This document shows, piece by piece, positions 784-46,759 of a stretch of 50,316 nt of DNA (within the stretch, counting starts at the first letter, position 1; each line of letters starts with the position of its first letter). The notes beneath the pieces were generated by a model, which did not search any database, was not told the DNA's origin, and saw only the letters and a list, made by a program, of their open reading frames with translations. A program made the translations under genes and the position numbers. The DNA comes from Myxococcaceae bacterium (lineage in GTDB: Bacteria; Myxococcota; Myxococcia; Myxococcales; Myxococcaceae), in the NCBI GenBank assembly GCA_019694575.1, contig JAIBBR010000020.1, positions 1 to 50,316 of the forward strand. Direction: 5' to 3'.

Positions 784-1152
784 GTGACGTACCGGTTACT
801 CTTCGCAGGTTTGAGTGAGCCCGAAGCCCGGCGCCTCGAGGCAATGGCTGACCCCCTGGGGCTTGCCATTACCAATGAAAGTTTAAGCAAAGCCGTTGAC
901 CGGGCGCGCCAAGACAAGCCGCACTTGGTGGTGCTCGACGTCTCTGATTCGGCAATGGCGATGGAGGTGCTGGGCCACCTGAAAACGCATGCCAAGACTC
1001 GCGACATGCAGGTGGTGGTGTTGGCGGCCCGAGAAGACTCTGAAGAGCGCGACATCGCGCTCGACTTGGGAGCGGCCGGTTACATCACCAAACCCATTAC
1101 CCCAGACTTCTTGGCGAAGTTGTCGGCCTTTCTCAGCGGCCAGGGTGATTGA
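784..1152 (+). CDS. Stand-alone receiver-domain protein, degenerate
   Basis: This 122-residue protein has the length and alpha/beta pattern of a single response-regulator receiver domain with no output domain. The candidate phospho-acceptor Asp is in HLVVLDVSDS and the conserved Lys is in YITKPITPDF. Two usual features are missing. The acidic pair after beta-1 is absent (LLFAGLSEPE instead of a DD motif), and the Thr/Ser at the end of beta-4 is Ala (VVVLAA). It may therefore bind partners without normal phosphotransfer. The start is GTG with no clear ribosome site. Its stop overlaps the next start (TGATG at 1150-1154), linking it to the SiaC-like and SiaB-like genes that follow. I infer it feeds a signal into that module. 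Confidence 0.75.
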   Translation: MTYRLLFAGLSEPEARRLEAMADPLGLAITNESLSKAVDRARQDKPHLVVLDVSDSAMAMEVLGHLKTHAKTRDMQVVVLAAREDSEERDIALDLGAAGYITKPITPDFLAKLSAFLSGQGD

Positions 1153-1541
1153 TGAATGAGCTGCGCCATGGAGCCTTGTTTCTGAAAGTAACCGAGCGGG
1201 CAGACCCGGCGCTGCTCAGCGTGCTGTGGGAGGGCAAGAGCGCCGACCGTGACCCCGCCGCGGTGTTGAAGCCGTTCTTCGACAGTTTACTGACGCGCAC
1301 CAAGCTGGCCCACGCCGCTCTGGACATGCACTTCGAAAAGCTCGAGCACTTCAATTCGTCGACCATTGCGGTGTTGATTCAGCTCATCAACGCCGCCACC
1401 GAGCAGCGCATCGCGCTCACTTTTTTTTATGACCCGAGCGCGCGCTGGCAAGCGCTGTCATTCGACGCCATTCAGCGGGCCTTGAAGCCCTTCGGGGGAG
1501 CGAGCCCTGTCACCGTCAATTTCGTCGCGGTGAAGCCATGA
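1152..1541 (+). CDS. SiaC/STAS-like phosphoacceptor protein (copy 1)
   Basis: This 129-residue protein resembles the SiaC (DUF1987) type of STAS-like protein. It has an N-terminal beta-rich part, a region resembling the SiaC FFxPLLxWL helix (VLKPFFDSLL), and a beta strand followed by the phosphoacceptor-type motif EHFNSSTIAVLI. In SiaC a Thr in the equivalent N-T-S motif is phosphorylated by SiaB and dephosphorylated by SiaA; here that position is Ser. The start is ATG at 1152, overlapping the receiver stop; an in-frame TTG at 1149 is less likely. Its own stop overlaps the next start (ATGA at 1538-1541), which is a SiaB-like kinase, so the pair is probably made in fixed ratio. A paralogue lies at 4867-5235. 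The role as switch protein is inferred from family and context. Confidence 0.65.
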   Translation: MNELRHGALFLKVTERADPALLSVLWEGKSADRDPAAVLKPFFDSLLTRTKLAHAALDMHFEKLEHFNSSTIAVLIQLINAATEQRIALTFFYDPSARWQALSFDAIQRALKPFGGASPVTVNFVAVKP

Positions 1542-2047
1542 ACCGAGAGCGGGTGCGCCTTGAAATGGTGCTCCGCCAAGAATGGCAGTCGATTGAAGAC
1601 GTGCGCGAAGCCGCGGTGGCGTGCCTGAAAATGGCTTACCCCGACCGGAGCGCCGGTGAAGTGTTGGCCATGGTGGTAAGCGAGCTCGCCGAAAACGCGG
1701 TGAAGTACAGCTGCTGGAACGAAAGCGGCTTTCCCGTTTTGAAAGTGGTGGGTTACGACGAGCACATCGACGTCACGGTAGAGCACCCCACTTCGCCCGA
1801 CGCGCCGCTTTCGCGGCTGTTTGACACCCTGCAGCGCATTCGTTCAGCCCCGTCGCGCGAGCAGGCGTACGTCGAGATGATGCGCGAAGTGGCCACCCAC
1901 GCCGAGACCACGGGCGGCCTGGGCTTGGCCCGCATTGCCCACGAAGCGGCTTGTGAATTGTCTGCCCGCCTGACGCCGGCCGGCACGTTAGAGGTGACTG
2001 CCCGCTCCACGCTCTTCAGTTTGCCCAGGCTCCGGCCGAGTACATGA
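1538..2047 (+). CDS. SiaB/RsbW-like HATPase serine/threonine kinase (copy 1)
   Basis: This is a 169-residue cytoplasmic protein with an anti-sigma-kinase-type GHKL ATPase fold. The N-box is visible as SELAENAVKYS (Glu and Asn binding Mg-ATP) and the later glycine motif as GGLGLARIAHEA. The length and lack of other domains fit the SiaB family, which phosphorylates the SiaC-type partner. The start overlaps the stop of the SiaC-like gene by 4 nt. It ends 9 nt from the convergent phosphatase gene, leaving no room for an ordinary terminator between them. The alternative is a generic RsbW-type anti-sigma factor, but no sigma factor gene is in the window. The paralogue is at 5240-5746. Confidence 0.7.
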   Translation: MNRERVRLEMVLRQEWQSIEDVREAAVACLKMAYPDRSAGEVLAMVVSELAENAVKYSCWNESGFPVLKVVGYDEHIDVTVEHPTSPDAPLSRLFDTLQRIRSAPSREQAYVEMMREVATHAETTGGLGLARIAHEAACELSARLTPAGTLEVTARSTLFSLPRLRPST

Positions 2048-2056
2048 AGCGAGCCC

Positions 2057-3463
2057 TTACGGCGCTGATTTGCGCAGCACCATCACCGTAATGTCGTCGT
2101 CTTGTTGAGCGGCGAAAGTTTTCACCCGCGCAACCAGTTGCCCAATGGCGGCGTCGAGCGGCTGGGCGGCAAGCTCGGCGAGCGCGGTCTTCAAGCGCTC
2201 TTGGCCAAACATTTCACCGTCGAGAGAGGTGGCTTCGGTGACGCCGTCAGAGAAGAGCAGCACCACGTCGCCTGCGTTCAATGAAATGGTGACGTCGCGC
2301 ACGTGGCTCTGGGTGTCGGGTACCACGCCTATCCAGCAGCCGTCGGTGGGGTGCTCTTCGACGGTGCGTGAAGCGGCGCGGTAAATCAGCAAGTCTTGGT
2401 GTTTGCCGGCCACGGTGATGCCGTCTTTTTCGAGCCGCACCAGGTTCAAAGTCATGTACCGGGTGGTGCCGAGCCGGGCGATGTTGTGGCGCAACACGCG
2501 GTTGATTGACCGGTACGCCGCGCTGGGGGTTTGCCCCGGCCTGTCATTCAGCGTTGAAACGAAGCTGGTCTGGGTCATCATCATCACCAGGCCTGATTCG
2601 ACGCCGTGGCCCGAGACGTCTCCAATCGCTACCCAGTGCTCGCCCGCGTTTGAGGTGAGCATGTCGTAATAGTCGCCCCCCACTTCGGCGGCGGGCAGCA
2701 TCAGCGCCGAAGCCTCGAAACCGCCCAGGCTCTGGTTGCGCGGCAAGAGCGCGGTCTGAATGCGCTGGGCGACTTCCATCTCGCTCCACAGCGCGTCGCG
2801 GGCGGCTTTCAATTCAGCGCGCGAGAGGCTTAGGTTTTCGTTCGCGTCGAGCAGCTCTTCGCGCAGCTTGAATTCTTGCTCGATGAGCCGGTGCTTCGAA
2901 TAGCTGATGGCCACGCAGATAATGACGGTGGCGACGAGAAAGTAGAGGTTGTTGATGAGAATGGGAGGCGAAAAGCTGCCGCCCCACAGCCCGTTGGCCA
3001 GGGCGTACATGCCCACAATCATCAAGCCATTCACCGCCGAATGAATCGCCTTCCACGGCAGCAGCAGGTTCACCGCAATCATCACCAGGTTGAGGCCGGC
3101 GTAATAGGCAGAATTGAAACCGCCCAAGTCGACGGTCATCTGCGTAATCATCACCCCGACGATGATGGTGAAGGCGTACCCGTGCAGGTACGAGTACTTG
3201 CCAGGTTTGGTGCGCCGCACAATCAGCGCCTGCACCATGGTGAAGAGCGTGGCCGCGGCCCGGTAGAGGCCAAATTGCTTCAGCTTGTCTTCGGGCATGG
3301 TGACGCTGTCGAGCACGAAGAAGAGCGGAATCAGGCAAAACCCGAGCGCCGTCAGAATGCGCAGCCACGAGTGGAGCAACCCGTTGCGGTACTCATCGAA
3401 GCTCACGCGAAGGCGCTGGGCGTGAGAAACGGTGGCTTCGGCTGGCCGAATGTCAGAAGACAT
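2057..3463 (-). CDS. Membrane SpoIIE/PP2C-type phosphatase (SiaA/RsbU-like)
   Basis: A 468-residue protein. About the first 190 residues contain roughly six hydrophobic segments (for example ILTALGFCLIPLFFVLDSV and LYFLVATVIICVAISY). A coiled-coil linker follows (HRLIEQEFKLREELLDANEN), then a PP2C/SpoIIE phosphatase domain. Metal-binding landmarks are VGGDYYDM, AIGDVSGHG, LFSDGVTEA and DDDITVMVL. It should dephosphorylate a phosphorylated SiaC/STAS-like protein in response to a membrane signal. The ATG at 3463 is chosen because the upstream gene stops 4 nt before it; a TTG at 3487 would add eight residues and overlap. It is the only phosphatase for two kinase/substrate pairs here and the last gene of the minus-strand operon 5746-2057. 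Confidence 0.85.
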   Translation of the reverse strand: MSSDIRPAEATVSHAQRLRVSFDEYRNGLLHSWLRILTALGFCLIPLFFVLDSVTMPEDKLKQFGLYRAAATLFTMVQALIVRRTKPGKYSYLHGYAFTIIVGVMITQMTVDLGGFNSAYYAGLNLVMIAVNLLLPWKAIHSAVNGLMIVGMYALANGLWGGSFSPPILINNLYFLVATVIICVAISYSKHRLIEQEFKLREELLDANENLSLSRAELKAARDALWSEMEVAQRIQTALLPRNQSLGGFEASALMLPAAEVGGDYYDMLTSNAGEHWVAIGDVSGHGVESGLVMMMTQTSFVSTLNDRPGQTPSAAYRSINRVLRHNIARLGTTRYMTLNLVRLEKDGITVAGKHQDLLIYRAASRTVEEHPTDGCWIGVVPDTQSHVRDVTISLNAGDVVLLFSDGVTEATSLDGEMFGQERLKTALAELAAQPLDAAIGQLVARVKTFAAQQDDDITVMVLRKSAP

Positions 3464-3467
3464 GGGG

Positions 3468-4877
3468 TTAGGCAGCGGGTTTTTCAAGCACCAGAAACAT
3501 CTGGCAACGGCTTTCGTCGAACGTCAAAGATAATTTCGCCCCCAGGCCTGACCCCAGCTCGAGAAATTCTTCTTCGCTGCGGTAGTAAAGTACCCAGTCC
3601 ATCCAATAGGCCATGTACCAGCGGGTGGGCGTGGCCACGTGGTAGTTGCCGATGACCGCGCAGCCTCCAGGGTTGACCAGGGCGTATATTTTTTGCAGCA
3701 GCGCGCGGGCCACGGGTGGAGTGAGGTAGTCGAACAGACCCATTGAATAGATGAAGTGGTAGCGGCCGAAGCGGCCTACCAAGTCGCTTTCACGCAACAT
3801 GGTGCGCACCGACTCGTTGTGAAAAACCGCCCGCACTTTGGCGTCGCGGGCCGACTCGATGCGGCGCAGGCCTTCTTTGGCGGTGTCGAGCGCGTGGGTG
3901 TCTTGGTCGAGCAGGCTGACTTCGATGCGCCGAAAATCGTCGGGCGTCATCAATAAGTCTTGCAGCTCCCAGGCGGGGCCACAGGCGACCGAAAGCACGC
4001 GCAAGTCAGGTGACAGGCTGGCGGGAAAACGCGCGAAAGTGTCGCGCATGACTTTGGGCACCAGGCGGCGTCGGTTGCGCACCGCTTGCGCCGCGGCTGA
4101 CTCAATGGGGTGTTTGTGCAGCAGTTTGTTGAAGACGTAATTGCCGACGTAGCGGTTTTCGTACGTCATCATCATCATCTCGGCGTCGCCGGCATAGCCG
4201 CGTGGCTTCAAGTTGGTGCGCTTCAAGAAGGCCGAGGCGATGAGGTATTCCCACAGTTGGCGGCGCAAATAGAAGCCGTGCTTTTCGTGTTCTTCTTTCG
4301 AAAAGTCTTTCACCTGCTCGTCGAGCTTTTTCATTTGCCCGTCGAGAAAGCCCATGAAGGCGCGGCCTTCGCTGTGCAAAATGGCTTCTTGGCCTGCTTG
4401 CGCCACTTGCGCCGGCTCGTTGGCGAGAATGCGGTCTTGCTCGTTGAAGAAGCGTTTGTAGACACTCAAGTCGTACGTGAGGTCTGCGACGTACTGGCGA
4501 AACGCGGGGCGAATGTCGTTCTTTTGCCCCACCACCAAAGGCAGGTTGCGAAAGTACGTCTTCAAGTTCACGACTTTGCCTTCGAACATCAGGCTCTTGC
4601 AGTCGTAAATGTCTTCTAAGAAAGCGAGCCGGCCGTTGTCGCCGCGACGGGTGTATTCGACAATCAGCTTGCAGCTCGAGAGGGTGACGGGGCCGCCCGG
4701 CGTCGAAAGGGTCAGCGCGCGAAAGACAGTGCCATCGGGAAAGCCGGCGTCAGACAGAAACGACACCCACAGTGAAGTGCGCGAGGCGTAGCCCAACCGC
4801 ACGGGCACCTCGGCTTCTTCGTGTTGAAGGTGGCCCGACAACAGCAGCTCAGCATTTTCAGGAACGTTATCGTGCAC
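3468..4877 (-). CDS. Class I SAM methyltransferase with beta-rich N-terminal domain (PhcB-like family)
   Basis: A 469-residue cytoplasmic protein. Residues 1-110 are beta-rich and PilZ-like in size, but I see no RxxxR/DxSxxG c-di-GMP motif. The middle is helical and contains KPRGYAGDAEMMMMTYENRY, a stretch typical of methyltransferases annotated as 3-hydroxypalmitate methyl ester (PhcB-type) enzymes. From about residue 292 there is a Rossmann methyltransferase with motif I VLSVACGPAWE, the acidic post-I strand SLLDQD, and motif IV-like FIYSMGLFDYL. The start is GTG and overlaps the SiaC-like gene by 11 nt; the end is 4 nt before the phosphatase. It sits inside the partner-switch operon, so it may be an output that makes or modifies a lipid-like or diffusible signal. 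That output role is inference; the substrate cannot be read from sequence. Confidence 0.7.
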   Translation of the reverse strand: MHDNVPENAELLLSGHLQHEEAEVPVRLGYASRTSLWVSFLSDAGFPDGTVFRALTLSTPGGPVTLSSCKLIVEYTRRGDNGRLAFLEDIYDCKSLMFEGKVVNLKTYFRNLPLVVGQKNDIRPAFRQYVADLTYDLSVYKRFFNEQDRILANEPAQVAQAGQEAILHSEGRAFMGFLDGQMKKLDEQVKDFSKEEHEKHGFYLRRQLWEYLIASAFLKRTNLKPRGYAGDAEMMMMTYENRYVGNYVFNKLLHKHPIESAAAQAVRNRRRLVPKVMRDTFARFPASLSPDLRVLSVACGPAWELQDLLMTPDDFRRIEVSLLDQDTHALDTAKEGLRRIESARDAKVRAVFHNESVRTMLRESDLVGRFGRYHFIYSMGLFDYLTPPVARALLQKIYALVNPGGCAVIGNYHVATPTRWYMAYWMDWVLYYRSEEEFLELGSGLGAKLSLTFDESRCQMFLVLEKPAA

Positions 4878-5235
4878 GAATGGTGATTCGCCCGTCAGAG
4901 GTCTCGAAGGCCTTCAGCGCTGAAAAGCTCAGCTCTTGCCACTTGCGACTCTTTGAATACTCGATAATCACCTTGCAAGAGCCCTTGGCGGCCTCATCGA
5001 GAAACTTCACCAGCGGGCTGACGGTCGACGAATTCATGTAGTCGAGGGCGGTGAAGTCGAGCCGCAAGCGCTTGTCGGGGGCGTTGCTCAACTGCAGTGC
5101 GCGGGTGAGCAGCGGCATGAGAAACCGGCCCGGCTCGCGGTCGTGGCTCTTGCCTTTCCACGAGAGCACCACCTCGCCCTCGCTGTCGCTCAAGTCGACG
5201 GTGAGGTTTTTGTCGGTGTGGGTCTCATGGGTCAT
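4867..5235 (-). CDS. SiaC/STAS-like phosphoacceptor protein (copy 2)
   Basis: A 122-residue paralogue of the protein at 1152-1541. Shared features are the RFLMPLLTRAL helix, LRLDFTALDYMNSSTVSPLV with the NSST phosphoacceptor-type motif, and a C-terminal KWQELSFSALKAF segment that aligns with RWQALSFDAIQRA of copy 1. An AAGGGG purine stretch precedes the ATG on the minus strand. The gene starts 4 nt after the SiaB-like gene stops and overlaps the methyltransferase start by 11 nt. It is predicted to be phosphorylated by the adjacent kinase (5240-5746) and dephosphorylated by the phosphatase at 2057-3463. Whether the two pairs cross-talk is unknown. Confidence 0.7.
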   Translation of the reverse strand: MTHETHTDKNLTVDLSDSEGEVVLSWKGKSHDREPGRFLMPLLTRALQLSNAPDKRLRLDFTALDYMNSSTVSPLVKFLDEAAKGSCKVIIEYSKSRKWQELSFSALKAFETSDGRITIRAR

Positions 5236-5239
5236 GGGG

Positions 5240-5746
5240 TCACCCCTTCGCGTGTTGCGGTTCGGCAGAGTGGTAAACGGCTGAAATCGAAAGCGACGAC
5301 GCGTCGTCGACGAAAAAGTCTAAAATGCAGCGGCCTTCGTAGGCCACGCGCGCCAGGCCCAAGCCGCTTTCGCCTGCCACAAAAGGCTGCGCTGACACTT
5401 CTTTTAGTTTCTCGACGTACGCTTCGAAGGGGCTTTGGTAGCCGCGAATCCACTGAATGGTGTCGTCGAGTTTTTTCAACGAGAGTGGGTTGGCGTGGGT
5501 GGGGCTTAAGACTTGAATGGTGACGTCAGGGCCTTTGACGTCGATGGTGAGCTCGATGGTGGGCCGCGTCGGGTCAAACGAGCCGTACTTCACCGCGTTT
5601 TCGAGCAATTCTTGCGCCGTCATGCACAGCGCGTAGCTCTCGTCTTGGCTCCAACCCGACGAAGTGAAGAATTGCATGCACGGTTCCCACACTTCTTTGA
5701 CCCGGTCCCAGTCTGCGTTCAGTCGTCGCAAAAATCGGGCGTGCAC
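5240..5746 (-). CDS. SiaB/RsbW-like HATPase kinase (copy 2)
   Basis: A 168-residue GHKL-type kinase and paralogue of 1538-2047. The N-box is QELLENAVKYGSF and the glycine motif is ESGLGLARVAYEG. The start is GTG at 5746, supported by AAAGGA about 8 nt upstream on the minus strand. That site lies directly beside a 10-bp hairpin (5760-5786). It is the first gene of the minus-strand operon kinase - SiaC-like - methyltransferase - phosphatase. In the SiaABC scheme it would phosphorylate the downstream NSST protein. Divergence between the two kinases is clear outside the motifs, suggesting separate inputs rather than a recent duplication. Confidence 0.7.
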   Translation of the reverse strand: MHARFLRRLNADWDRVKEVWEPCMQFFTSSGWSQDESYALCMTAQELLENAVKYGSFDPTRPTIELTIDVKGPDVTIQVLSPTHANPLSLKKLDDTIQWIRGYQSPFEAYVEKLKEVSAQPFVAGESGLGLARVAYEGRCILDFFVDDASSLSISAVYHSAEPQHAKG

Positions 5747-7293: not shown

Positions 7294-9411
7294 TTACTTT
7301 TCGACGAACTTGTCGAACTGCACGGTGGCCAGCGGCGCGGCCAGGTTGGTCACATTCGCGGCGCGAATGCCGGCGTCAGAAATGGCGTACACGAAATCGT
7401 CAGCCATCACGCTGCGGCGCACGTACGGTTGCCAGTAATAGGTCCACGTCTGGTTGTCCCAGTTGTAGGTGTACGACTGGTACATGTCTGAAAGCGAGAG
7501 CACGCCTTTGGGGGTGAAGCCGGTGAGCGCGTCGACGCCGTACACCTTCAGCTCCGAGCGAAAATAGCTCCAATAGTCGTTGCCGGTTTGGGTGGAGTCC
7601 CAATCAGAGAAGGGAATCGCGAGCAGCTTCTTGGCGGCGAAATAGTTGAAGGCTTTGTGCTCGTACTGCGCTTCGCTCCAACCGTAAGCGGTGCCCACCA
7701 GCTGTACGTGGGTTTGCTTGGGGTTCGACAAATCGCTCACATCGAAAATGGCGAGCTGCAGCGCACGTTGCCGCCAGTCTTGGGTTTGGCCATTCACCGG
7801 CTCGGGCACATAAGTGCCAATGGTGAGCAGGTGGTTCTCGTCGAGCGGGTGCATGTACGTCGAGAAGCCGGGAACTTTCAGCTCGCCCATTTTCTTGGGG
7901 TGGGTGGGGTCAGACAAGTCGAACGTGAAGAGCGGGTCGACTTGGCGGTACGTCACCACGAAGCCCTTGTCGCCGACGATGCGGCTGCTCATCACCCGCT
8001 CGCCCGGAGCCAGGTTGTCAGAGTGGCCAATCACCTCGAGGGCACCGGTATTTTCGGCCATCACCGACAGCTTGCTGTAGGTCTCGATGCGGCCCCAGGT
8101 GTTCTGCGGGTTCATCACGTCAGGCACGCGCTCATTCACCGTGGTGACGACGCGAAAATAACCTTTGTCGCTTTCGTCCATTGAGAATTGGTCGACGATG
8201 CTGCCTTCGAGCACGCCCGAGGCCACGTAGACGGCTTGGTCAGCCTGGCTGATGTCGAACTTGTGCAGGTACGTGGTGTCTTTTTGACCCGGCTGCGGCC
8301 ACCACCACCAGTGTTGGGTGGCGACGTAAAGGTTGTTCGCCGAAGCGTAAATTTCGCCCGGTTCGGCCATCACCACGCTCTGGGTGAGCTGCGTCGGGTT
8401 GGCCAAGTTCAACGTGACGATGCCCACCGTGCCCAAATGGGTGGCGGCGTTGACGCGGCTGAAGCTGTGGCAGTCGAAGGGCAGTTCAGTCGTCACGCCG
8501 TTGGCGGTGAGCTTGGCCGGAGGCAGCCAGTCAGCCAGCGTTTGGTCGCGAATCAGCTTCTCGTTCTTGTCGATGAGCGCATTGAAGAGCGAAACCCGTA
8601 GGGCCTTGTCTTCCCACCAGTTGCCCGCTTGGTTGTCAGGCCAGTACTGCACCAGTGGAGGCATTTGAAAATGGCTCGAGAGCACCGCGCGAATCGAGTC
8701 GCCCACCCGGCGCGAATTGTTGTACGCGCCTGGCAAGGCATATTCGTACGTCACTTTCGGCGCCGCCAAGTCGCTGTAGTCGACGACGGTGATTTTGGCG
8801 GTGTTTGAATACCAATAGCCGCAATAGCGCGCGGAGCAGTCGACGGCTTGCGCATCGAGCGGGTACTGACGCCACACCGTCGAGAAGACCACCACCCGGT
8901 TGTGCTCATCTAAAAACATTTCGCGTGGCCAACCTTCGATTTCGAGCTTGCTCTGAATCGACAAGTCAGCGGCCGGCCAGCTCTTCGAGGCGTACAGCGT
9001 GTTGCCCGAGAGCGCGAAAATGCGCGTGCCGTCATTCTTCACGAAGTCGGCTTCGTCGACGCCTGCCACTTGGGTGTTGGTGGTGGTGTAGTCGGTGGGC
9101 GTGGTTTTCGCGGCGCCCGCTGCCGAGGGAGCACCCGCGGCGTCTTCAGCGAACAAAGGGCCGCCCCGGCCCCAGTAGCTGTACGTTTCATCGCGGTACG
9201 ATTCTAAGGTGTTGCGCATGTCGCGCACCGCGGTGTCTTCAATGTACTGCTCCAAGTCTTGGCAAGCGTTGGTTCCGGTGAAGGCGAGCAGCTGCACCCG
9301 CGAATTCACCGCGGGAGGTTGCGGCTTGTTGTCTGCACCGCACCCAATGCCTGCCAAGCCCAGCCCTGTCAGCGCGGCGTAAAGTCGCCAGCGGTTCGTT
9401 CTGATGTTCAT
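7294..9411 (-). CDS. Secreted lipoprotein with C-terminal beta-propeller domain
   Basis: A 705-residue protein. The signal peptide has lipobox LAGIGC (Cys24). The family hallmark of secreted beta-propeller proteins (Beta_propel, distantly WD40-like) is visible as TNTQVAGVDEADFVKNDG, followed by repeated blade-like strands to the end (for example GDKGFVVTYRQVDPLFTFDL and YMHPLDENHLLTIGTY). The start is ATG at 9411, with AGAAGGA 8 nt upstream on the minus strand; the longer GTG frame to 9453 lacks this support. It stands alone, with a terminator at 7225-7258 and a divergent FHA gene. Function is unknown; the family contains no well-defined enzyme. Confidence 0.85.
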   Translation of the reverse strand: MNIRTNRWRLYAALTGLGLAGIGCGADNKPQPPAVNSRVQLLAFTGTNACQDLEQYIEDTAVRDMRNTLESYRDETYSYWGRGGPLFAEDAAGAPSAAGAAKTTPTDYTTTNTQVAGVDEADFVKNDGTRIFALSGNTLYASKSWPAADLSIQSKLEIEGWPREMFLDEHNRVVVFSTVWRQYPLDAQAVDCSARYCGYWYSNTAKITVVDYSDLAAPKVTYEYALPGAYNNSRRVGDSIRAVLSSHFQMPPLVQYWPDNQAGNWWEDKALRVSLFNALIDKNEKLIRDQTLADWLPPAKLTANGVTTELPFDCHSFSRVNAATHLGTVGIVTLNLANPTQLTQSVVMAEPGEIYASANNLYVATQHWWWWPQPGQKDTTYLHKFDISQADQAVYVASGVLEGSIVDQFSMDESDKGYFRVVTTVNERVPDVMNPQNTWGRIETYSKLSVMAENTGALEVIGHSDNLAPGERVMSSRIVGDKGFVVTYRQVDPLFTFDLSDPTHPKKMGELKVPGFSTYMHPLDENHLLTIGTYVPEPVNGQTQDWRQRALQLAIFDVSDLSNPKQTHVQLVGTAYGWSEAQYEHKAFNYFAAKKLLAIPFSDWDSTQTGNDYWSYFRSELKVYGVDALTGFTPKGVLSLSDMYQSYTYNWDNQTWTYYWQPYVRRSVMADDFVYAISDAGIRAANVTNLAAPLATVQFDKFVEK

Positions 9412-9612
9412 GGTCAAATTCCTTCTGGTGAGAGGCCCATTACCTCTTGCCAACCCCTTGCCAGAGTAAATGCTTTTTAAAACAAATGGTTAACAGCGGC
9501 CCCCTCTCAGAAACCTGAGGGCTGGCGGCTTTGGGCACGTGAAAAACAAAGGTGGGCAGTCACCCTGCGATGAAGTGTCGACAGTACAAATGGGCGATGT
9601 ATCTTGCGCGGC
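9412..9612. other. Divergent intergenic region
   Basis: This 201-nt gap separates the divergent beta-propeller and FHA genes. It must hold both promoters. It contains an A/T-rich patch near 9470-9490 but no motif I can name with confidence. Confidence 0.4.
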
Positions 9613-28771: not shown

Positions 28772-28810
28772 GTTCCATAAAATGGTCTAAAAAATGGAGT
28801 ATGTTCCATA
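28772..28810. promoter_or_regulatory. Operator-like repeat cluster before the AAA_14 gene
   Basis: GTTCCATA occurs directly repeated at 28772 and 28803 (31 bp apart, about three helical turns). AAAATGG occurs at 28779 and 28791. ATGGA and TCCAT form an inverted repeat across the start codon (28794-28809). This looks like a multi-site repressor region overlapping the translation start. Confidence 0.45.
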
Positions 28811-29949
28811 GGCTCATAAAGCCAAGTTTTTCCAATAGCTTCTTTCTGTTTGGAGCGCGCGGTACTGGCAAAACGACCTGGCTCGAGGGTCATTTGCCCG
28901 GCGCCCATGTCATCGACTTGCTCGAAGACCGGTGGGAGACTCGGTATCAGCGGTCGGCTGACCAACTCAAAGCCGATTTGGAGGCCCTGCACCCCCGGCC
29001 CGAGTGGGTGGTCATCGACGAAGTGCAGAAGGTGCCCAAACTTCTCGATACCGTGCATCAACTCATCGAAAAGAAGCGCTGGCGCTTTGCGTTGACGGGG
29101 TCGAGCGCTCGAAAGCTCAAGCGGGGCGGCGCCAACCTGCTCGCGGGCCGGGCCTTCGAGTACCGGCTCTTTCCCCTGACGTCAGTCGAGCTGGGGAAGA
29201 ACTTCGTACTCGACGACGTGCTGAACTGGGGCAGCTTGCCAAAAATATTTTCGCTCGATGCTTTAGACCGCGCCGACTTTCTGCGCGCGTATGCCAGCAC
29301 GTATCTGCGCGAAGAAATTCTGCAGGAACAGCTGGTGCGCAACGGTGTCGCGTTTCGGCAGTTTCTCGAAGTGGCTGCGCAAGAAAACGGCAAGACGCTC
29401 AACTTCACCAAAATTGGGCGCGACGTGGGAGTCGACGTCAAGACAGCGCAAACCTTCTTTCAAATTCTCGAAGACACTTTGGTGGGCTTCTTCTTGCCTG
29501 CCTTTCATCGCTCCACACGAAAGTCAGTTCGGCAGCAGCCCAAGTTCTATCTTTTTGATTTGGGCGTGAAGCGGGCGCTGCAGTCAGCGCTCAATGAACA
29601 GCTCACGCCGCGCACGTCGGGCTATGGCGACGCTTTCGAGCACTTCGTCATTGGTGAAGTGCTGCGGCTCAACCACTACGCCCGCAGTGATTGGAACCTC
29701 TTTTACTACCAGACCCATGCCGGCGGAGCGCTCGACTTGGTGCTGCACCGCGGCAAGCGAACCGTGGCCGTGGAAATTAAATCGACCGACCGAGTCGATG
29801 AAGTCGAAGTGCGCCGCATGGCCCGAGTCGCCGAAGGCATTCGCTCAACCCAGCGATTTTTCGTCTCTAACGACACGGTGGCGAGCGAACGCGAAGGCGT
29901 GCGCTGCGTACACTGGCGCAGTTTTCTAGAGTGGTTGCGCGCTGCGTAA
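28801..29949 (+). CDS. AAA_14/DUF4143-type ATPase (1)
   Basis: A 382-residue cytoplasmic ATPase. Walker A is FGARGTGKTTWL and Walker B is EWVVIDEVQKVP; the sensor region is RFALTGSSARKL. These are typical of the AAA_14 domain. The C-terminal DUF4143 part (about 210-380) ends in a restriction-endonuclease-like core: an Asp in GALDLVLHRG followed by VAVEIKSTD, a D...ExK pattern. The family is very common and its biological role is unsettled. The start is ATG at 28801, with GGAG 4 nt upstream, inside a cluster of repeats. A second, divergent member is at 45587-46759. Confidence 0.85.
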   Translation: MFHRLIKPSFSNSFFLFGARGTGKTTWLEGHLPGAHVIDLLEDRWETRYQRSADQLKADLEALHPRPEWVVIDEVQKVPKLLDTVHQLIEKKRWRFALTGSSARKLKRGGANLLAGRAFEYRLFPLTSVELGKNFVLDDVLNWGSLPKIFSLDALDRADFLRAYASTYLREEILQEQLVRNGVAFRQFLEVAAQENGKTLNFTKIGRDVGVDVKTAQTFFQILEDTLVGFFLPAFHRSTRKSVRQQPKFYLFDLGVKRALQSALNEQLTPRTSGYGDAFEHFVIGEVLRLNHYARSDWNLFYYQTHAGGALDLVLHRGKRTVAVEIKSTDRVDEVEVRRMARVAEGIRSTQRFFVSNDTVASEREGVRCVHWRSFLEWLRAA

Positions 29950-45586: not shown

Positions 45587-46759
45587 TCACGCGCGAAGAC
45601 CGCTCGCTCTCAGAAACGTTTCCAGGCCTTGGGCGCTGACGCCCGCGGTAACCACTTCGGTACCTGGCCCGGTCTTGGGAGAACGATGAACCACGATGCC
45701 TTGTGCTCGCTCCCCACCCATCACCCGCTGCAATTCTTTCATCGACTTTGCATCAACCGGCATCACCGTCTTTGCCCACTTCACTTCCAAAAGCCGCAGT
45801 TTGCCTCCCGGCGCGGGCTCGACGAAGTCGACCTCGAGGCCTCGCTCATCACGAAAGTAATAGAGCTCCCGGCGGCGCCCTAAGTTGATTTGATTCTTAA
45901 TCAACTCGGCGGCCACAAAGCCTTCGAACACTGGCCCTAGAAAAGGCGAGCGCTCGAGCTGCCCAGGTGTCGATATTCCGAGCAGGTGACACACCAGGCC
46001 TGAGTCGAGCCAATAGAGCTTGGGTGACTTGGTCAGTCTTTTTCCGAAATTTTCAAAGTAGGGGGGAATCAACGCAATCAACCCAGTGACTTCTAAAGTC
46101 GATAGCCACTGCGAGACGGTCGGCACAGAAATACCCAGGGGCGCAGCCAAGTCTGAGCGGTTGAGCACCTGGCCATGGCGGCTGGCAACGAGCGAGACGA
46201 AGCGCCTAAAAGTCAGCAAGTCTTTCACCGCGTGCACCTGGCGTACGTCGCGCTCGACATATGTTTGCAGGTAAGACTCGAACCAGGTGGCGGCGGCCGA
46301 TGGCCGAAGCCAGACTTCGGGGTAACTTCCACGCAGCAGGTTCCATCTTCCGAGCTCGCGGAAAGAAAGCGGCAGAAGCTGAAAAACCGCGGCGCGGCTT
46401 GCCATTGATTCGGTGGCATTCGCCATCAGCGAATAGTCGTGCGACCCAGTCAATAACCAGCGCCCGGTGGCCCGAGGCTGTGCGTCGATGAAGCTTCGTA
46501 TCCACGGGAAGAGCTCAGGGGCGTTTTGAACTTCGTCAACAATGGCCGGTAGCGCGAGCGACTCGAGCCAACCCCGAGGGTCTTCTTTAACGCGGGCCAA
46601 GACGTCGGGTGATTCCAACAGGTGGTAGGAGGCTCTGGGAAAACAGTGGCGCAGCAAGTGGGTTTTGCCGGCCCGTCTCGGCCCGGTGAGAATAACCGCC
46701 GAAAATTGACGCGCCGCCTTGCGCAGCCTGGAACTCAATTCTCTTTTGAATTTTCCCAT
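45587..46759 (-). CDS. AAA_14/DUF4143-type ATPase (2)
   Basis: A 390-residue cytoplasmic ATPase. Walker A is LTGPRRAGKTHLL, Walker B is ALPAIVDEVQNAPE, and WLLTGSHDYSL is the sensor region. The C-terminal DUF4143 part includes a winged-helix-like stretch (LAAPLGISVPTVSQWLSTLE) and a restriction-endonuclease-like core (GLEVDFVEP ... LRLLEVKWAK, D...ExK). It is only distantly similar to 28801-29949. A perfect 13-bp inverted repeat lies 2 nt before the ATG, suggesting autoregulation. The family's function is not settled. Confidence 0.88.
   Translation of the reverse strand: MGKFKRELSSRLRKAARQFSAVILTGPRRAGKTHLLRHCFPRASYHLLESPDVLARVKEDPRGWLESLALPAIVDEVQNAPELFPWIRSFIDAQPRATGRWLLTGSHDYSLMANATESMASRAAVFQLLPLSFRELGRWNLLRGSYPEVWLRPSAAATWFESYLQTYVERDVRQVHAVKDLLTFRRFVSLVASRHGQVLNRSDLAAPLGISVPTVSQWLSTLEVTGLIALIPPYFENFGKRLTKSPKLYWLDSGLVCHLLGISTPGQLERSPFLGPVFEGFVAAELIKNQINLGRRRELYYFRDERGLEVDFVEPAPGGKLRLLEVKWAKTVMPVDAKSMKELQRVMGGERAQGIVVHRSPKTGPGTEVVTAGVSAQGLETFLRASGLRA

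Follow-up and report, generated by a model that had tools for sequence, protein, structure and literature searches.

A candidate Phc-type signalling cassette with a phosphatase receptor and a partner-switch output in a Myxococcaceae genome

Phc signalling is known from Betaproteobacteria, in which it works with histidine-kinase receptors; PhcB is an established signal-making methyltransferase, and the signal of the PhcBSRQ system is a methyl 3-hydroxy fatty acid. The slr1658/slr1659 pair of Synechocystis is uncharacterised, and a literature search found no published function for it. In the SiaC protein of Pseudomonas, Thr68 directly follows an Asn in the segment LLYLNTSSIK (PMC7647112).

The locus and its protein families

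The DNA analysed here is a stretch of 50,316 nt from a Myxococcaceae genome, hereafter the window, in which the locus under study occupies 784-5746. It contains seven genes in two operons that converge with stop codons exactly 9 nt apart. All seven are open frames at the positions below, and both these positions and the 9-nt convergence agree with a preliminary description of this DNA.

784..1152, plus strand: stand-alone receiver-like domain, 122 aa (PF00072, 1.9e-9 over 32-111)
1152..1541, plus strand: NSSTa, STAS-like switch protein of the NSST-2 paralogue group (slr1659_superfam, 7.5e-6)
1356-1358, plus strand: predicted phospho-acceptor Ser69 of NSSTa (from alignment)
1538..2047, plus strand: kinase A, GHKL-type protein kinase (slr1658_superfam, 3.4e-7; SiaB family, 0.0041)
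2057..3463, minus strand: putative receptor phosphatase, six-helix membrane domain and SpoIIE/PP2C domain, ATG start (PF07228, 3.2e-35)
3468..4877, minus strand: class I SAM methyltransferase (MT), candidate signal synthase (hhalign to PhcB)
4867..5235, minus strand: NSSTb, STAS-like switch protein of the in-operon group (slr1659_superfam, 1.2e-8)
5029-5031, minus strand: predicted phospho-acceptor Ser69 of NSSTb (from alignment)
5240..5746, minus strand: kinase B, protein kinase of GHKL type that opens the conserved operon (slr1658_superfam, 6.9e-7)

The genes are tightly packed, with overlaps between the receiver stop and the NSSTa start, between NSSTa and kinase A, and between NSSTb and the MT start. 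Because the receiver lacks the N-terminal acidic pair (the sequence there is LLFAGLSE), it is probably a pseudo-receiver that is not phosphorylated in the standard way. Pfam searches found no cyclase domain among the seven proteins, as had been noted from the sequence. Within 784-5746 there are also no PhcR/PhcQ-type receiver genes and no histidine kinase output, the sensor being fused to a SpoIIE domain. Elsewhere in the window we observed a beta-propeller protein with a lipoprotein-like start (7294-9453; PF09826, 1e-130) and two AAA_14/DUF4143 ATPases (28801-29949 and 45587-46759).

Both kinases retain the N box (ELxENAxKY; ELAENAVKY in kinase A) and the GLGL box, kinase A scoring 137 bits against the family profile and lying on a long branch of the kinase tree. 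The NSST motif reported for both small proteins indeed falls at codons 68-71 in each, with TCG as codon 69 in each. Ser69, which follows Asn68, is invariant in 62 NSST proteins, and in NSSTa and NSSTb it aligns with T68 of SiaC (PMC7647112). The two pairs had been described as SiaB/SiaC-type, of which distant kinship survives the profile check; direct membership was rejected as the Pfam scores fall below the cut-offs. The NSST proteins reach 17.0 and 20.9 bits with PF09345 (SiaC; cut-off 24.5), kinase A reaches 16.8 bits with DUF6272 (PF19788, SiaB; cut-off 26.6), which does not match kinase B, and 3 of 62 NSST relatives reach 0.01 with the SiaC equivalog. In the paired test with NF047703 and NF047705, slr1658_superfam was matched by all 53 kinases and slr1659_superfam by 59 of the 62 NSST proteins, the window's own kinases and NSST proteins scoring 26-35 bits on these models, under the curated cut-off of 100. 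Judged by these profiles, the kinases and NSST proteins are distant kin of SiaB/SiaC that stand nearer to NCBI's slr1658/slr1659 superfamilies. A profile search of solved structures with the NSST family finds TM1442 and SpoIIAA; a single-sequence search with NSSTb gave no match there, where profile searches succeeded. The family matches thus bear out the earlier picture of two kinase-NSST pairs around a single SpoIIE-type membrane phosphatase, and the genetically linked SpoIIE phosphatase, GHKL kinase and STAS-like protein with a conserved acceptor are predicted to form a partner-switching gene set.

The membrane part of the phosphatase comprises six helices within about 22-200, the last of which continues as a long coiled helix to 238 (AlphaFold pLDDT 92). 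Its catalytic domain (122 bits to SpoIIE) keeps the metal-site motifs GGDYYD, GDVSGHG, SDGVTEA and DDD, which agrees with the acidic residues given for SiaA (PMC7647112), and its nearest folds in a Foldseek search are RssB and SiaA-PP2C. The protein scores 69.7 bits against 700 for the SiaA equivalog, and its sensor domain is unlike that of SiaA. No named Pfam domain matched the N-terminus, and residues 1-205 align with the N-terminus of PhcS over 194 columns (hhalign E 9.5e-17), with control comparisons using reversed profiles or wrong domains giving E > 0.3. On this profile evidence the six-helix membrane domain is homologous to that of PhcS.

By the same kind of comparison the MT is a full-length homologue of PhcB, aligning with the Burkholderiales PhcB orthologues over 457 columns (hhalign E 3.5e-62); since the identity in this alignment is about 20%, its product may differ from that of PhcB. 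The AlphaFold model (pLDDT 94) has a beta-rich N-terminal domain at 13-86, for which PilZ was considered and no Pfam PilZ match obtained. The SAM-site region is kept (SVACGPA and LLDQD), and in its structure the MT comes closest to methyltransferases acting on small molecules and to 3ocj, which is uncharacterised, a second structural comparison covering mainly the catalytic part (122-468 at most).

The four-gene unit and the other outputs of its sensor

Among 60 relatives a long MT match is present in seven, with kinase B, NSST and phosphatase in the same order, save that for two of the seven (G004 and G035) this applies to kinase and phosphatase. When about 85,000 species genomes were scanned with the MT alignment, 58 loci were recovered, and in 52 of these kinase, NSST, MT and phosphatase all lie within 4.2 kb; as the retrieval patterns were derived from the window's MT clade, this proportion describes that clade and not all PhcB relatives. 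Of the six other loci, two are truncated at a contig end. Kinase B orthologues occur in 54 of the 58 loci, and the NSST gene lies directly before the MT in most loci and is missing from the operon in five; the NSSTb orthologues, located between kinase and MT, are 37-51% identical. The recurrence of the four-gene operon is far beyond chance. It is spread over about eight phyla, namely Myxococcota, Spirochaetota (in whose Leptospiraceae the phosphatase precedes the MT), Thermodesulfobacteriota, Fidelibacterota, Calditrichota, Pseudomonadota, SAR324 and, in one MAG, Bacteroidota. Most carriers are MAGs, the named strains being Natronospirillum operosum and Saccharospirillum sp. MSK14-1. Conservation of the whole layout, which the preliminary description had put forward as a check, accordingly holds for the four-gene B operon and was not seen for kinase A and the receiver, which were found only in the window's genome; the MT, whose presence along with the receiver had been correctly noted, is a PhcB homologue that belongs to the unit as a constant component, not the bystander it was taken for.

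Several loci of this collection show further peculiarities. In L052, L055, L057-L059, L062, L065-L067, L069, L070, L074, L078, L087 and L088, which come mostly from Desulfobacterales and Neomarinimicrobiota, an extra SpoIIE-domain gene (matched over ~200 aa) directly follows that of the sensor phosphatase. Kinase and MT are in one frame with no NSST between them at L087:8671-10050, which may be a natural fusion or a deletion or assembly fault. Immediately downstream of the unit, at L099:13019-15062 (the same as L031), lie two additional, distant NSST genes (MNSSG) and two tandem kinase genes.

Relatives of the MT and the sensor domain also occur together with other kinds of output. In all 14 Burkholderiales loci the genes encode, in order, an MT, a six-helix histidine kinase, a receiver joined to a histidine kinase, and a receiver, which is the gene order of phcBSRQ (PMC10653808). 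Their identity as phc operons rests on this order and on published residue positions: an Arg corresponds to R22 of PhcB in 15/15 sequences, 14 of which have it at residue 22 itself, the kinase His lies at 229-236 in the Phc-type sensors (His230 in PhcS), and the residue 69 positions before it is Leu or Ile (L161 in PhcS) (PMC6989110, PMC11960443). A plasmid of Paraburkholderia graminis carries an MT, a six-helix histidine kinase and two receivers. Distant MTs from the same taxonomic order as the window's genome adjoin hybrid histidine kinases; the membrane portion at the N-terminus of these kinases scores 83-98 bits against the phosphatase profile, over its residues ~12-192. At L040:8488-11247 a PhcB-like MT lies beside a class III adenylate/guanylate cyclase that carries the same six-helix domain (63 bits).

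Kinase and NSST genes were detected at none of the 20 kinase- or cyclase-type loci (14 Phc and 6 myxobacterial) and were found only with the phosphatase form of the MT-sensor pair. The MT tree and the sensor tree each require one change for the SpoIIE output and one for the Phc output, and the distances in the two trees are correlated (rho 0.87, 0/1000 permutations), also within groups. As MT and sensor persist with other outputs in the absence of the kinase and NSST genes, the fixed partner of the MT is the sensor and not the NSST protein. Hence the MT goes together with the sensor and the kinase/NSST pair with the phosphatase output, and a synthase-sensor pair with an exchangeable output is strongly suggested. 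The pairing is not obligatory, since an MT is found without kinase or NSST in L079 and L086, and kinase, sensor phosphatase and a convergent NSST-2 gene are found without MT at L183:6716-9434 (G039). The latter arrangement is possibly a receiver-only (eavesdropping) form.

The second switch protein

In the NSST tree NSSTa groups (100/99) with the NSST genes that flank the module in L045, L047, L048, L051, L063, L093 and L097, and this NSST-2 group stands apart from the in-operon NSSTb group. The first five of these loci have no in-operon NSST; their NSST-2 gene is convergent with the phosphatase, an arrangement shared with the window, and an additional divergent NSST-2 is present in four of the five. 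Both kinds of NSST are found side by side in the window, L093 and L097. An NSST-2 gene is located at the 3' end of the phosphatase in at least seven loci, including the window and L183, and the G005 contig starts inside such a sensor phosphatase and continues with two NSST-2 genes. When the 60 relatives were searched with an NSST-2 profile, strong matches were recovered in 4 of the 7 module genomes versus 2 of the 53 others (Fisher p 0.001), and in both of the latter a sensor phosphatase adjoins the NSST-2 gene. In view of this repeated linkage and co-occurrence, NSST-2 is probably a substrate of the sensor phosphatase.

The earlier proposal had tied NSSTa to the phosphatase of the locus in a two-substrate branch, and the linkage of its NSST-2 relatives to the same phosphatase family in other loci lends this branch support; that the two substrates compete for the one phosphatase is possible. 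At the other NSST-2 loci no counterpart of kinase A and the receiver was found. The window's genome encodes three kinase-NSST pairs and three SpoIIE proteins. The third pair (L157:5654-8231, contig 75) has the motif FMNSTG and converges on a PAS-like SpoIIE phosphatase, so that the convergent layout occurs twice in this genome; as this pair has a phosphatase of its own, that enzyme might in principle act for pair A as well.

Proposed mechanism, alternatives and relation to known systems

Taken together, these observations lead us to favour, with some reserve, the reading that the locus is a Phc-type cell-cell signalling cassette whose receptor, with a phosphatase output, has been rewired to a partner switch. 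The PhcB-like MT would produce a methylated small molecule as signal, perhaps the methyl ester of a fatty acid. This would be sensed by the PhcS-like six-helix domain of the phosphatase, and the sensing would set how active the SpoIIE domain joined to it is. Kinase B would keep NSSTb phosphorylated on Ser69, the phosphatase would remove this phosphate upon a change of signal state, and one of the two forms of NSSTb would bind a target. NSSTa, kinase A and the degenerate receiver might constitute a second branch, specific to this lineage, that the same phosphatase reads.

Two other readings assign the MT a different role, and we regard each as improbable. In a CheR-like adaptation loop it would methylate the receptor or an NSST protein, and the sensor would read an environmental cue instead of a self-made signal. 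CheR is matched weakly by 29 of 54 MT members (best 1e-5) and is among the weak profile matches to solved structures, and the sensor-phosphatase locus L183 has no MT, all of which would fit such a loop; it is opposed by the full-length homology of the MT to PhcB, by its best structural neighbours and by the unit itself, among whose genes Pfam found no CheB methylesterase. A plain SiaABC-like stress or nutrient switch would instead make the MT an output enzyme bound and regulated by NSSTb, in the place of SiaD. The position of the NSST gene immediately before the MT in most loci agrees with this, as do the likeness of the phosphatase domain to RssB and SiaA and the binding and activation of SiaD by SiaC in Pseudomonas (PMC8457831). 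The five loci without an in-operon NSST speak against it, as does the continued pairing of MT and sensor at loci that have a histidine kinase or cyclase output and no kinase/NSST genes.

The second branch of the favoured cassette has its own competitor, namely that pair A is an independent module that landed beside the operon and is served by another SpoIIE protein of the genome. We think this unlikely, if less so than the two preceding readings. It draws on the three kinase-NSST pairs and three SpoIIE proteins of the genome, on the long branch of kinase A and the failure to find its operon elsewhere, and on G010 and G023, in which the NSST-2 gene lies apart from the module. Against these points stands the position of NSST-2 at the 3' end of this very phosphatase in at least seven loci, in five of which it is the sole NSST.

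On the general claim we are evenly balanced: these loci may define a distinct, widespread kind of quorum sensing that uses a protein phosphatase as autoinducer receptor and the kinase/NSST switch as output, and in which some myxobacteria have added or exchanged a second switch protein such that one signal would feed two outputs. If this is true, a phosphatase with a kinase/substrate switch can serve to read quorum-type signals, signalling by MT-made molecules extends to myxobacteria, spirochaetes, Desulfobacterales and others, and kinases and switch proteins of the slr1658/slr1659 type gain an input. The swap of output domains on a conserved synthase-sensor pair offers a clean test case for receptor rewiring. 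We found no report of a Phc-type MT and sensor combined with a phosphatase and switch in the open-licence literature.

Among described systems, the unit shares the logic of phosphatase, kinase and STAS antagonist with the RsbU/SpoIIE, RsbW/SpoIIAB and RsbV/SpoIIAA switches, but encodes no sigma factor and has no known anti-sigma activity. The slr1658/slr1659 superfamily models are matched by its kinases and nearly all its NSST proteins, the window's proteins scoring under the 100-bit cut-off. It resembles SiaABCD of Pseudomonas aeruginosa in having a membrane SpoIIE/PP2C phosphatase, a GHKL-type kinase and a STAS-like substrate with the acceptor right after an Asn, and differs from it in missing the SiaB/SiaC cut-offs, in lacking a diguanylate cyclase, in its sensor domain and in the added MT. 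With PhcBSRQ of Ralstonia and Cupriavidus it shares a PhcB-homologous MT adjoining a six-helix sensor homologous to the PhcS N-terminus, whereas its output consists of a SpoIIE phosphatase, a GHKL kinase and an NSST protein in place of a histidine kinase, PhcR and PhcQ.
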